From the NCBI RefSeq assembly GCF_000826645.1, contig NZ_JXJP01000003.1:62001-126000 (forward strand): a stretch of 64,000 nucleotides of DNA. The letters are read 5' to 3'. The DNA is from Psychroserpens mesophilus (GTDB lineage Bacteria; Bacteroidota; Bacteroidia; Flavobacteriales; Flavobacteriaceae). This document shows, in pieces, positions 40,253 through 45,177 of the stretch. Every line of letters begins with the position of its first letter. Within the stretch, counting starts at the first letter, position 1. A program made the position numbers and the translations under genes. A model generated the notes under the pieces. That model did not search any database. It saw only the letters and a program-made list of their open reading frames with translations, and had not been told where the DNA came from.

Positions 40253-40270
40253 ACAGGATACTTATCCTGT
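40253..40270. repeat. Perfect palindrome ACAGGATA-CT-TATCCTGT
   Basis: This 18-bp palindrome spans the stop codon of the 40262 gene. The half-site also occurs twice, inverted, at 40089-40115, so four copies lie within 180 bp. It could be a binding site or chance; the spacing differs between the pairs. Confidence 0.3.
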
Positions 40271-41062
40271 AACAGATACCATCATAGTATTGCCTTGTGC
40301 AAACTCGTATAAGTCTCCATTAATATCTTGGTAGAATACAATACCAATACCAACAAATACAGCCGAGCTAGCAGGTATGGCACCAAGAGATGATACATCT
40401 ACCTCTAATGCAATGTCACTACCTACCATACCACCAAGCGGGATTGGTGCACTATAGGCAGTACCACCATTACCATTAACGGTATCCTCATCTGGCTCAT
40501 AGCTGCGCATCACAGGAATGTATTCATAATTGCTAACATAGCCAGTAGCTAACACCAGTTTAAAATGTGTAGCACCTTCTGGAGCTGTAATAAAAGCATC
40601 TGTATCGAAATCTGTGACTAACCAGTCTATGATATCACGAGACGCATTGATATTAGGAAGTGCATAAGGTGCATAGAAGATGCTTTTAAACGGGAGTTTA
40701 TTATTAAACTCGAAGCCTTTAAAGATGTCTCTCATGCTAACCAGATCCATGTCACGTTCTCCACGTTTACCTGCACCAGCGCTGATTATTCGTCTCATTA
40801 TACCGCTTAAGCGAGAACTTATATAGGAATCTCCCATAAGTTTTACCATGTTGGCGAAGGCATCTCTAAAGGCTTTTCCAGCTTTAGAAGCACCAGAGAA
40901 CTCCATCATGTTTTCGCGTGTACGTTTAAACGCAGGATCGTTCATGATGCGTTTTTTACTAATTCTGCTTTGGGTTTTCACAAAATTTTGTCCGTTTTTT
41001 CTGTAAAATGTTAGTCCGTCTAGGGTACCATCTAATTTTACAAATGAATTGTTTCTTGCCAT
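40262..41062 (-). CDS. Cytoplasmic protein of unknown function, Bacteroidota conserved hypothetical
   Basis: Start at the ATG at 41062 (MARNNSFVKLDGTLDG); the frame upstream to 41113 looks noncoding. 267 residues, no signal peptide. The N-terminus LDGLTFYRKNGQNFVKTQSRISKKRIMNDPAFKRTRENMMEF is basic and recalls a family of flavobacterial hypotheticals that begin the same way. The C-terminal half is beta-rich (THFKLVLATGYVSNYEYIPV). I do not know its function; a structural or phage-derived role is possible but unsupported. It lies at the edge of the accessory region. Confidence 0.72.
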   Translation of the reverse strand: MARNNSFVKLDGTLDGLTFYRKNGQNFVKTQSRISKKRIMNDPAFKRTRENMMEFSGASKAGKAFRDAFANMVKLMGDSYISSRLSGIMRRIISAGAGKRGERDMDLVSMRDIFKGFEFNNKLPFKSIFYAPYALPNINASRDIIDWLVTDFDTDAFITAPEGATHFKLVLATGYVSNYEYIPVMRSYEPDEDTVNGNGGTAYSAPIPLGGMVGSDIALEVDVSSLGAIPASSAVFVGIGIVFYQDINGDLYEFAQGNTMMVSVTG

Positions 41063-41230
41063 AATAAAAGGTTTTACAAGTTGCTGCAAAAGGCAAATAT
41101 GTTTTACAGTCACTTAGGTTCATATTAAGGAAATAGACTTGGGTCTGATCCTGTTATTGGGTTATTTATGCCCAGGGATTATATAAGGCAATTAGGTTTT
41201 AAATACTCTAGACTATTAGCACCGCGAATA

Positions 41231-41660: not shown

Positions 41661-44435
41661 ATGAAGCCAGATATTAAGAATAAAATTAATGCAAAAAATC
41701 CAAATAAAGTTAAAGATTTAAGATTAGAAAATGGCAGATTAAAAGAAGTTCCTAACGAGTTAATAGATTTTAAGAGATTAAAATTTTTGAATTTATTTAA
41801 TAATAGTTTGACTGAATTACCTGAATTTTTTGAAAATTTTGTGTTGCTAGAGAACTTAAATTTAAGTAATAATAAATTCATTCTTTTTCCAGAAGTAATT
41901 ACTTTATGTAAAAACCTTAAGGTTTTAAACTTTAGAGATAATAGAGTAACTGATTTAATAGGCTTACAAAAACTATCTAATTCATTAGAAAAAATTGATT
42001 TATCATCTAATAACTTACAAACATTAAGAGTCGATTTTTCATCTTTCTACAAATTAAAAGAAGCTGATTTAAGCAATAATGGAATAAGTAAATTCCCAAA
42101 ATCTTTACTTCTAGAAAGACTTAAGCATCTAAATTTATCTTCAAATTCTATAGATAATTTGCCGGAAGATATAAACAAACTAAAATCTATTAGACATTTA
42201 GATTTAAGCTATAATAATATTACTGAATTGCCTGAAGAAATATGTGAGCTTACAGAACTTCGCTATTTAAATTTAACTGGTAATAACATAATTACATTGC
42301 CAAAATCGTTTTCCAAGCTTAATAAGTTACAAGATTTGAACTTAAGTGGAAACCCAATAGGTGATGTTCCAGTTGAAATCTCTAAGCAAGGGTTAAAGGG
42401 TGTTTTAAACTATTATATGCATTTAGGAGCTTCAGTACGTTTGAATGAAGCTAAATTATTGGTTGTTGGTCAAGGAGCTGTAGGTAAAACTTATCTAATT
42501 AATAAAATGATTAATGGCAGTAGTCCTGAAACATATACAACAGAAGGAATTGATATTTTCAAATGGCACCTTAGCTGCGAAACGGAAAATGAAGGAAATC
42601 AGAGAATTCGCTTAAATGCTTGGGATTTTGGAGGGCAAGAAATTTATCATTCAACCCATCAATTTTTTCTAACCAAAAGATCCATTTATTTGTTTTTATG
42701 GGAAGCTAGAAAAGATGAATCACTAATCAATTTTGATTATTGGTTGAATATAATAAAAATGCTTAGTAATTCCTCACCAGTAATAATTGTTCTAAATAAA
42801 ATTGATGAAAGGCTAAAAGAAATAGATGAAAAATCTCTGAAAGAGAAATTTCCTAATATTAAAGCTTTTAAATCTGTAAGTGCAAAGGAAGGTACAAATA
42901 TTGAAGATTTAATTAATTGTATTAAAACTAATATTATTACTCTTCCGCATATTGGAGATAAACTACCTGAAGTTTGGAGTAATATTAGAGAAGAATTAGA
43001 GGCTCTAACGGATAATTATATATCGTATGAAGCCTATATTGATATTTGTCATAGCTATGGGCTAAATAAAACTGAATCAAAACATTTGAGTAATTATTTT
43101 CATGATTTGGGTGTTTTCTTGCATTTTATTGATAATCCAATCTTAAAACCTGTGGTTTTCTTAAAACCAGAATGGGCAACGAATTGCGTATACAGAATAC
43201 TAGATTTAAATGACGTAATAAAAAATTTTGGTGAGTTTGATAATGAATTACTTGAAAAACATATATCTGATTATGATTCTCAACAGATGAGTTACATTAT
43301 TGAACTAATGAAGAAATTTGAGCTTTGTTTTGAAATAAACAAAGGCACATTTATTATACCAGAATTATTAAAACCAAGTTCCCCTGATTTAGATATACAG
43401 ATTATTAACCCAATTAGTTTAGTTTATAAATATGACTTTATGCCAGCTGGTATTTTATCTCGTTTGACAGTGAGGTTAAAAGATTCTATTTATGATAACT
43501 TTTACTGGAAAAATGGGCTTTATGTTCAACACAATGACTCTATTGGAATAATTGAAAGTAACCAATTTTCTAGAACCATAAAAATCAAAGTATCTGGCGA
43601 TAGCAAGGCTACATTATTAAGTATTATTAAAAGAGAATTAGATATTATTAACCAAACATTAAATTTTCCACACCACGAAACTAATATTCAATGCAATTGT
43701 GATAAGTGTCTTGTTGAAGATTCTCCATTCATGTTTGATTATGAATATCTTGAAAGAGCAAGAATTGCTAAAATTCAAACAGTTCAATGCCAATTGCATT
43801 TAAAAAATGTAGATTTATCTAAATTAATTGGACCTTATGATATGTCGTCAGGTGAATATAAAACTGAATTTGGTTTTACAAAAGAAGATTTGACTTATGA
43901 TATATGGGAAATATCTTCTAGGATTTTAGAACGAAAAAGCATAGTTAAAATTGAGGATTTAATTACAGATAACTTCACTGATAATCTTCGGTCAAAAGGG
44001 TATTTTGTTACTGACCAAACAAGAAGCGGTAAGGCTAAAAAATTTAGTGGAGAGTTAGATATAATGGTTAGAAATTCAAGAAATATGCCAGTAGCTATTG
44101 TTGAAGCAATGAGATTAAGCTCTTTTAATTCTGGAAATAAAACGATTATTAATCATTTGAATAAATTATTAATTGATTATGATACAAATGGGTTATCAAG
44201 AAATTTTATGCTTATCTATTCTGAGACCGAGAAATTTTCGGAGTTTCAAGATAAATATATTGATTACATAAAAGAATTACCTTTAAAAGAAGAATATGAT
44301 GAAAGAGCTAAACTTATTTCATATAGTAAGAATATTGAATTAAGTAAAAATGACAGTTTAAAGGTTATTAAATCTATGCATCAAAGGGATAATACCATTT
44401 GTGAAGTTTATCATTTCTTAATTAAAATGAATTAG
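41661..44435 (+). CDS. LRR-Roc-COR (ROCO) GTPase with C-terminal nuclease-like domain
   Basis: 924 residues. Leucine-rich repeats cover about 18-250 (LKHLNLSSNSIDNLPEDINKL type). The Roc GTPase has P-loop GQGAVGKT at 270-277, switch DFGGQE and NKID for guanine recognition. A COR dimerisation domain follows (about 435-660, FLKPEWATNCVYRILD). A Cys cluster CNCDKC (about 677-682) is typical of bacterial ROCO proteins and probably binds zinc. The C-terminus holds GELDIMV (Asp800) and AIVEAMRL (Glu815), the spacing of a PD-(D/E)XK nuclease core, but with Met817 where Lys is usual. LRR-ROCO proteins with variable effectors are proposed immune sensors; that role is inferred here. No signal peptide, monocistronic, AT-rich. 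Confidence 0.85.
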   Translation: MKPDIKNKINAKNPNKVKDLRLENGRLKEVPNELIDFKRLKFLNLFNNSLTELPEFFENFVLLENLNLSNNKFILFPEVITLCKNLKVLNFRDNRVTDLIGLQKLSNSLEKIDLSSNNLQTLRVDFSSFYKLKEADLSNNGISKFPKSLLLERLKHLNLSSNSIDNLPEDINKLKSIRHLDLSYNNITELPEEICELTELRYLNLTGNNIITLPKSFSKLNKLQDLNLSGNPIGDVPVEISKQGLKGVLNYYMHLGASVRLNEAKLLVVGQGAVGKTYLINKMINGSSPETYTTEGIDIFKWHLSCETENEGNQRIRLNAWDFGGQEIYHSTHQFFLTKRSIYLFLWEARKDESLINFDYWLNIIKMLSNSSPVIIVLNKIDERLKEIDEKSLKEKFPNIKAFKSVSAKEGTNIEDLINCIKTNIITLPHIGDKLPEVWSNIREELEALTDNYISYEAYIDICHSYGLNKTESKHLSNYFHDLGVFLHFIDNPILKPVVFLKPEWATNCVYRILDLNDVIKNFGEFDNELLEKHISDYDSQQMSYIIELMKKFELCFEINKGTFIIPELLKPSSPDLDIQIINPISLVYKYDFMPAGILSRLTVRLKDSIYDNFYWKNGLYVQHNDSIGIIESNQFSRTIKIKVSGDSKATLLSIIKRELDIINQTLNFPHHETNIQCNCDKCLVEDSPFMFDYEYLERARIAKIQTVQCQLHLKNVDLSKLIGPYDMSSGEYKTEFGFTKEDLTYDIWEISSRILERKSIVKIEDLITDNFTDNLRSKGYFVTDQTRSGKAKKFSGELDIMVRNSRNMPVAIVEAMRLSSFNSGNKTIINHLNKLLIDYDTNGLSRNFMLIYSETEKFSEFQDKYIDYIKELPLKEEYDERAKLISYSKNIELSKNDSLKVIKSMHQRDNTICEVYHFLIKMN

Positions 44436-44532
44436 TTTTCGACCTCATAAAATTTTGGTAAAACAATAGGTGAGTGGAGCGTACATATTTTAGGCTTTGC
44501 AAATGCAATTATACTGGATGATTTATTTATAA

Positions 44533-44550
44533 TTCTATTTTACATAATAT
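44533..44550 (+). repeat. 18-bp inverted repeat, left arm
   Basis: TTCTATTTTACATAATAT is the exact reverse complement of 45160-45177. The arms enclose 609 bp. The inner part (ATGTAAAATAGAA) occurs a third time at 45094-45106. Confidence 0.7.
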
Positions 44551-44624: not shown

Positions 44625-44755
44625 GAAATACGGGATTCTTAGCGATTGGTTTTTTTTCAATAGACAATTACATATTGACCTTCGGGTTATGAGCCCGACG
44701 ATTTACATAAATTAAAATTATTAGAATTTTTTATTCGCTGAGAATCGTGTATTTC
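44625..44755. repeat. 131-bp long hairpin
   Basis: Arms at 44625-44646 and 44733-44755 pair at 18 of the first 21 positions: GAAATACGGGATTCTTAGCG on the left with CGCTGAGAATCGTGTATTTC on the right. The midpoint (44690) falls exactly in the 7-nt loop of a second, perfect 5-bp stem (TCGGG/CCCGA, 44682-44698). The A/T-rich stretch between the two stems pairs poorly. Confidence 0.65.
44677..44701 (-). pseudogene. Isolated initiator tRNA-Met anticodon-arm fragment
   Basis: Read on the minus strand, these 25 bases equal the E. coli initiator tRNA-Met sequence from the end of the D arm through the variable loop. The core is CGGGCTCATAACCCG: three consecutive G-C pairs, a mark of initiator tRNAs, around the CAU anticodon loop. 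The acceptor stem, D arm and T arm are absent, so it is not a functional tRNA gene. It may be an integrase attachment core copied from a tRNA gene, or an RNA mimic of the anticodon arm. Confidence 0.65.
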
Positions 44756-44760
44756 AAAAT

Positions 44761-44780
44761 TTCTGGACGATTGTCCAGAA
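44761..44780. repeat. Perfect 8-bp hairpin
   Basis: TTCTGGAC-GATT-GTCCAGAA, 8 bp with a tetraloop, 5 bp after the long hairpin. No T run follows, so it is not a standard terminator. Confidence 0.5.
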
Positions 44781-44890
44781 TATTTAAATTATATGAACCT
44801 CGTTAAATCGTTTAAAACATAACTTCTTAATCATTGTACCGAATACTCAAATTATAAAAACGCTTTTTATTAATAATTTTATTGTTTAGC

Positions 44891-45004: not shown

Positions 45005-45060
45005 GTATTTTAATTTAATTGATAGGAGTTCGTGAATCTCCTAAAGTCGATTTGTCTAAC

Positions 45061-45085
45061 GATATGAACCTAAAGGCGTCATATC
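45061..45085. repeat. Perfect 7-bp hairpin
   Basis: GATATGA and TCATATC enclose 11 nt. The left arm overlaps a decamer (ATATGAACCT) also present at 44791-44800. A further stem (AGGAG/CTCCT, 45024-45042) with loop TTCGTGAAT lies just upstream. Confidence 0.4.
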
Positions 45086-45094
45086 TGCAACTAT

Positions 45095-45131
45095 GTAAAA
45101 TAGAACCCAAAAGTTCTATTCGCTATTTTAC
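45095..45131. repeat. Nested hairpin
   Basis: An outer 9-bp stem GTAAAATAG (45095-45103) / CTATTTTAC (45123-45131) and an alternative inner stem AGAAC/GTTCT (45102-45117). The outer arm belongs to the repeat family ATGTAAAATAGAA. Confidence 0.45.
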
Positions 45132-45159
45132 TCACATGAATACATTTGTATTATAATTT

Positions 45160-45177
45160 ATATTATGTAAAATAGAA
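45160..45177 (-). repeat. 18-bp inverted repeat, right arm
   Basis: ATATTATGTAAAATAGAA, exact reverse complement of 44533-44550. It lies 180 bp before the end of the DUF481-like gene. Confidence 0.7.

Follow-up and report, generated by a model that had tools for sequence, protein, structure and literature searches.

We analysed a 64,000-nt stretch of DNA from Psychroserpens mesophilus (the window), in which an orphan anticodon arm of the initiator tRNA-Met lies downstream of a gene for an LRR-Roc-COR (Roco) protein (41661-44435, plus strand; Pfam domains LRR, Roc, COR-A and COR-B), a neighbour for which no link to the arm was shown. Directly after the Roco stop codon comes a block (44439-44530, plus strand) that, by sequence matches, recurs near dif in relatives. 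It is followed by an extra copy of the XerD side of dif (44533-44549, minus strand, 0 mismatches), a 131-nt hairpin (44625-44755, minus strand) with the arm near its centre (44676-44701, minus strand), a degenerate extra copy of the XerD side (45089-45105, plus strand, 2 mismatches) and the predicted dif site itself (45146-45173, plus strand), about 445 bp from the arm. PADLOC found nothing on five window ORFs, including the Roco gene. By eye, the C-terminal part of the Roco protein looked nuclease-like, with what we take to be a nuclease-like motif. Another window gene (40262-41113), without a Pfam hit and presumably DUF6266-like, has further copies near dif in two relatives and close to the G085 element described below (L139, L145, L163, L086); it had no match among phages.

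The first-pass annotation had read the minus strand at 44677-44701 as 25 nt of an initiator tRNA-Met, and this was confirmed: the 25-mer matches the anticodon arm, presumably also that of the E. coli initiator tRNA, with 0 mismatches, and dinucleotide shuffles gave no match with up to three mismatches (0/100). The intact tRNA-fMet gene, which the annotation had advised searching for, was located by ARAGORN on another contig (L001, 1477-1550), the one such gene detected in this genome. It shares 26 consecutive nt with the window arm, and this identity refutes a chance match, the objection that the annotation had raised against itself. With up to two mismatches, a 24-mer of the arm occurred at exactly two places in the genome: the tRNA-fMet gene and the window site. 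The window copy has its core CGTC...AGGT at 44678-44700, with a 5-bp stem TCGGG/CCCGA, a 7-nt loop CTCATAA (from sequence and fold) and the tail AGGT; it ends 1 nt past GGTC (GGTCA) and the T-arm is absent. That no further tRNA part is present agrees with ARAGORN and Rfam, which reported neither a tRNA nor an RNA family in the window; Rfam also gave nothing on the 1-kb zone at E up to 1. A search for promoter signals at the arm found 7 against 8.0 expected in shuffles, none above chance.

The long hairpin was likewise substantiated: the 131 nt of the minus strand fold at -31.3 kcal/mol (z -4.93; shuffles as good, 0/200) and 18 of the 21 positions of the outer arms are paired. Conservation in relatives, which the annotation had proposed as a check, failed to appear: a search of the 22 other genomes of the genus did not find the arm-bearing hairpin, and phage and plasmid sequences gave no BLAST match to it. 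Its right outer arm is a copy of an imperfect palindrome, motif A (44729-44798, plus strand; found in a scan of genome contigs), and its left outer arm, as read from the sequence, repeats the start of motif A in inverted and degenerate form (44625-44649, minus strand). One genome-contig scan gave 45 copies of motif A in 42 Bacteroidota stretches (L057-L098), with hosts that include Tenacibaculum, Aquimarina, Leeuwenhoekiella and Flammeovirgaceae, and a viral scan gave a single stretch, which was motif A. A dif-like 24-mer (up to two mismatches) lay within 600 bp of 19/45 copies and further off in 3 more; these are raw counts, to be set against an expectation of about one dif per genome. In relatives, parts of motif A have matches close to dif as well.

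The 0.9-kb non-coding stretch 3' of the Roco gene occurs once in this genome if the tRNA match is set aside. Pieces of it match all 22 other genus genomes (G315 only via its tRNA-fMet), and in the fetched loci these pieces cluster round a 24-mer, TATAATTTA(T/C)ATTATGTAAAATAG, present in the window and in 17/23 relative loci (21 genomes), once per such locus. Extended leftward, the 24-mer becomes TTGTATTATAA-TTTATA-TTATGTAAAAT, the 11-6-11 XerC/XerD layout of dif, which we compared with what we take to be the E. coli site. GC skew at the predicted dif was higher on the left than on the right in 17/18 loci (the exception being L152) and changed sign in 11/18; in the window, cumulative GC skew peaks broadly at about 42-56 kb. 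A single strongly conserved 11-6-11 site and a position at the GC-skew switch are expected of dif, and 45146-45173, where both were found, is taken as the predicted dif by layout, conservation among relatives and skew. The site of the arm is a dif-side hotspot common to the genus. Extra XerD-side copies are to be expected at sites with a turnover of XerCD-dependent elements (compare PMC7062461). Just upstream of dif, in the window (45036-45145) and in relatives, we noted a conserved-looking inverted structure containing XerD-like arms. Integron attC was one candidate for the hairpins that flank dif; 15/18 dif flanks (leaving out L147, L156 and L157, visibly without the structure) gave no covarying pair in RNAalifold, and attC is therefore not claimed.

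Orphan Met arms without the rest of a tRNA were found in at least seven copies in five genomes: the window genome (G000, one), G085 (two), G152 (two), G817 (one) and G819 (one); the seven are a lower bound, as both search patterns miss arms that start GTCGGG and keep C after AGGT. A pattern requiring a base other than C before TCGTC hit 2/397 family genomes (G000 and G085) and 1/395 in a phylum sample overlapping the family one. A pattern for both Met isoacceptors, requiring a base other than C after AGGT, hit two places each in G085 and G152 among the 397 genomes, and G152, G817 and G819 among 8 genomes of the G152 genus. The constant borders of the arms are in part set by these patterns, which demand a mismatch before TCGTC or after AGGT; the window copy and the two G085 copies alone were found without border-fixing patterns. 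CGTC precedes the stem in 7/7 orphan copies, and stem pairing is kept where the arm varies (U27-G43 or U27-A43). Five copies occupy one intercistronic gap of a mobile element, one lies beside tandem tyrosine recombinase genes and one is that of the window. A look through 155 loci (1.24 Mb), chosen for other purposes, showed no free-standing arm of any other tRNA.

No arm-only copy was seen in any viral stretch. In one viral scan, ARAGORN recognised a tRNA in 5 of 7 stretches, and two (L099 and L103) were tRNA 3' halves; in another, of 10 stretches (L167 and L171 by ARAGORN, the others by eye), L167 was a 3' half; in a third, 8 of 9 held a tRNA and L305 was cut by its end; a further scan gave 0 stretches. 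The G085 segment matched 149 plasmid records; nearly all of the 20 listed were 24-nt matches, and the two examined were tRNA genes. The window site is real, is not a chance match and is not a tRNA gene; it belongs to a small group of orphan Met arms that occur with mobile DNA.

In G085, G152, G817 and G819 an arm starts where a Rep-like gene has its stop codon, and an ATPase gene follows; these arms lie in sense orientation between stop and start codon. The gap of G085 holds, in order, an elongator arm, an initiator arm and a TGTC palindrome, with RteC and HTH_17 genes upstream of the junction. G085 and G152 agree in all of 26 nt of arm, against 69-73% identity of the genes on either side. Downstream of the arm, the window and the G085 initiator copy resemble each other (0.002 in 1000 shuffles); for the upstream flank the value was 0.078. 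The ATPase is present in 76/249 genomes. Among the 30 homologous loci listed, G085's alone has arms, and CGTC/TGTC palindromes were counted by eye in the gap of five, a script that proved too strict having flagged only L183. The closest relative of the G085 element among these loci (L182, 95% ATPase identity) has neither arms nor palindrome. Three stretches folded round element arms were no more stable than shuffles. PADLOC gave two weak hits on G085, and a 946-aa PIN_12 protein is encoded two genes downstream of the tandem arms (L161, 15259-18099).

The second copy of G152 lies on a 4.5-kb contig (contig 21, L281) with two tandem tyrosine recombinase genes and a CHC2/Toprim primase gene, in an element unrelated to the Rep-like/ATPase one and flanked by inverted Xer-like hairpin sites, one of which folds with z -4.70. 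Over about 29 nt this arm is closer to the G817 and G819 copies than to G152's own tRNA: A43 and GTTT are common to the three, whereas the elongator tRNA of G152 differs (GGAGGTC). Compared with the 3-kb G817 and G819 loci, L281 gave this 29-nt arm match and no other. This likeness is the chief argument for a unit passing between elements.

Copies of another kind occur within the genus. Four att copies, two in G303 and one each in G309 and G300, run from GTCGGG or TCGGG onward to the tRNA end. In G303 the distances to the intact tRNA-fMet are 36 and 76 kb. Beside this tRNA starts a tyrosine integrase gene (PF00589 by Pfam), and a second one, 31% identical to the first, follows the first 3'-half copy. 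These four copies, with the integrase gene beside the G303 tRNA, indicate that elements do integrate in tRNA-fMet at this arm in the genus. Islands in tRNA-fMet with displaced tRNA 3' halves were noted on G303 contig 1 at 105.4-182 kb (L321-L324) and in L316 and L325. Compared with the genus att copies, the window copy has two extra 5' bases (TCGTCGG) and no T-arm. A tRNA 3' half, restored or displaced, was found in the genus islands and not at the window site, where ARAGORN counted 0. An integrase near the window arm, which the first-pass annotation had advised looking for, did not turn up either among seven ORFs between 33.9 and 47.6 kb (Pfam) or as a relative of the G303 or L281 recombinases (tblastn).

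The arm derives from a tRNA, lies beside the predicted dif and recurs in two unrelated kinds of mobile element. Because similar orphan arms occur inside mobile elements of related bacteria, the perfect initiator-tRNA anticodon arm in the hairpin probably represents a tRNA fragment that mobile DNA has carried along. The annotation's proposal of a footprint left by an integrated element therefore holds as far as the link to mobile DNA goes, through the dif hotspot and the six other orphan arms in mobile-element-like loci; for its attachment-site version the evidence points both ways. The predicted dif, the nature of the outer arms and the orphan arms elsewhere were not noted in that annotation. 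The reading that we prefer, tentatively and at less than even confidence, is that of a tRNA-derived, CGTC-tagged hairpin that spread like a REP, outside the described CGTC families. The 26-mer would then be a tRNA-Met-derived hairpin that has travelled as a short unit (CGTC, stem-loop, AGGT), either with mobile elements or from one to another, in the manner of CGTC-tagged REP palindromes. In the window the unit would have ended up among element remains next to dif, with an inverted pair of the dif-linked palindrome around it that makes the long hairpin, and the unit itself may be copied by a single-strand DNA process that acts on CGTC-tagged hairpins. Such a unit is favoured by its CGTC tag, by its place after a stop codon, by the TGTC palindrome next to it and by the passage from one element to another. 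Several observations weaken it: the copies are few and all Met; most features of the described CGTC families are missing from the arm; 5/7 stand in one junction of related elements and may reflect one old event; no other tRNA's arm appeared in the 1.24 Mb; and tRNA-fMet is a working integration site in the genus. The genus 3'-half att copies and the bias of the patterns towards constant borders lower its weight further.

The same four att copies, which had appeared as 23-24 nt matches in the genus, raise the weight of an alternative that we consider doubtful: the arm could be an attachment-site derivative, a core for an integrase targeting Met-tRNA anticodon arms, which an element left behind or brought along and whose tRNA 3' half either was never there or has gone. 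Near-symmetry of the arm about the anticodon loop, as expected of a core site, and the orphan arm beside tandem recombinase genes in L281 speak for it, together with the integrase genes beside the G303 tRNA and after its first 3'-half copy. All seven orphan arms, however, are without the T-arm and acceptor half, which are kept in the four copies from the genus and in three from viruses (L099, L103, L167), and the tandem elongator and initiator arms of G085, inside an operon, are unlike element ends. The window, moreover, has no relative of the G303 or L281 recombinases. With one tRNA-fMet detected in this genome, integration at the arm alone would break the gene, since islands in tRNA genes bring sequence that restores it (Islander; PMC4383910).

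An inert relic, that is, a one-off DNA or RNA copy of a tRNA captured in repair or recombination and passed on with element debris, with no function or mobility of its own, we hold to be unlikely. It would suit the sporadic occurrence (2/397 family genomes for each of the two patterns, 1/395 in the overlapping phylum sample), the 22 other genus genomes where the hairpin was not found, and the armless L182; recurrence at dif as well as in two kinds of mobile element, the 26 nt kept between G085 and G152 despite the divergence of the flanking genes, and the representation of both Met isoacceptors argue against it. Those two isoacceptors, the sense arms between stop and start codons in four genomes, the pairing maintained at the variable stem position and the PIN_12-domain gene of G085 would fit instead a transcribed arm that imitates Met tRNAs, to decoy an anticodon nuclease or to act as a control element where stop and start codons meet in mobile-element operons. 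We rate this RNA mimic the least probable explanation, in view of the unremarkable folding of the three element-arm stretches, the promoter signal at chance level in the window, the lack of conservation in the genus and the restriction of arms to G085's among the 30 ATPase loci listed. To return to the REP-like hairpin, its widest form seems quite unlikely: Met arms would have turned into a mobile CGTC hairpin of Bacteroidota elements, with REP-like formation still under way, possibly kept as a mimic of both Met tRNAs at the stop/start junction or as a landing site for integrases that target tRNA-Met.

PMC3733652 names as open questions whether CGTC repeats are still being formed de novo and by what they are mobilised. 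A tRNA hairpin with a CGTC tag, lying next to such a repeat and found in unrelated elements, would, if our reading is true, make the origin and mobilisation of CGTC repeats testable. The predicted dif and its linked palindrome also mark terminus integration hotspots across Bacteroidota. Literature searches, covering listings and passages of PMC3733652, PMC6006769, PMC3025954 and PMC7062461, gave no orphan anticodon arm described as a repeat.

Several known systems resemble this one in part. The tRNA gene fragments of prokaryotes (see PMC9897764) are also partial tRNA sequences outside a functional gene; here, an internal arm alone recurs in mobile elements. The excerpts of PMC3025954 and PMC7062461 consulted describe dif sites and XerCD-dependent elements, which the window resembles in having variable genes and additional XerD-side copies next to a predicted dif; a tRNA arm within the dif-side debris sets the window apart, none being described in those excerpts. 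The tRNA-gene attachment sites (Islander, PMC4383910; the G303, G309 and G300 islands) involve the same tRNA and the same arm as core, but keep the tRNA 3' half and have an adjoining integrase, whereas the orphan arms are without the 3' half. CGTC-tagged REPs, as PMC3733652 presents them, have no dedicated transposase and lie mostly downstream of genes; the arms share with them the CGTC tag followed by a stem-loop, the post-stop position, the want of a known transposase and, in G085, an adjoining TGTC palindrome. The tag (CGTC, or TGTC or CCTC) at one end was found in 7/7 copies. The described families have a stem of 8-9 bp with AT in the first two positions, a 4-5 nt loop, an unpaired tail that is mostly CCA and repetition within a genome; the arm has the stem (5 bp) and loop (7 nt) of a genuine tRNA, the tail AGGT, and one or two copies per genome (one besides the tRNA in G000, two each in G085 and G152). 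Since stem, loop, tail and copy number differ from those families, we say only that the arm would work like a CGTC REP.
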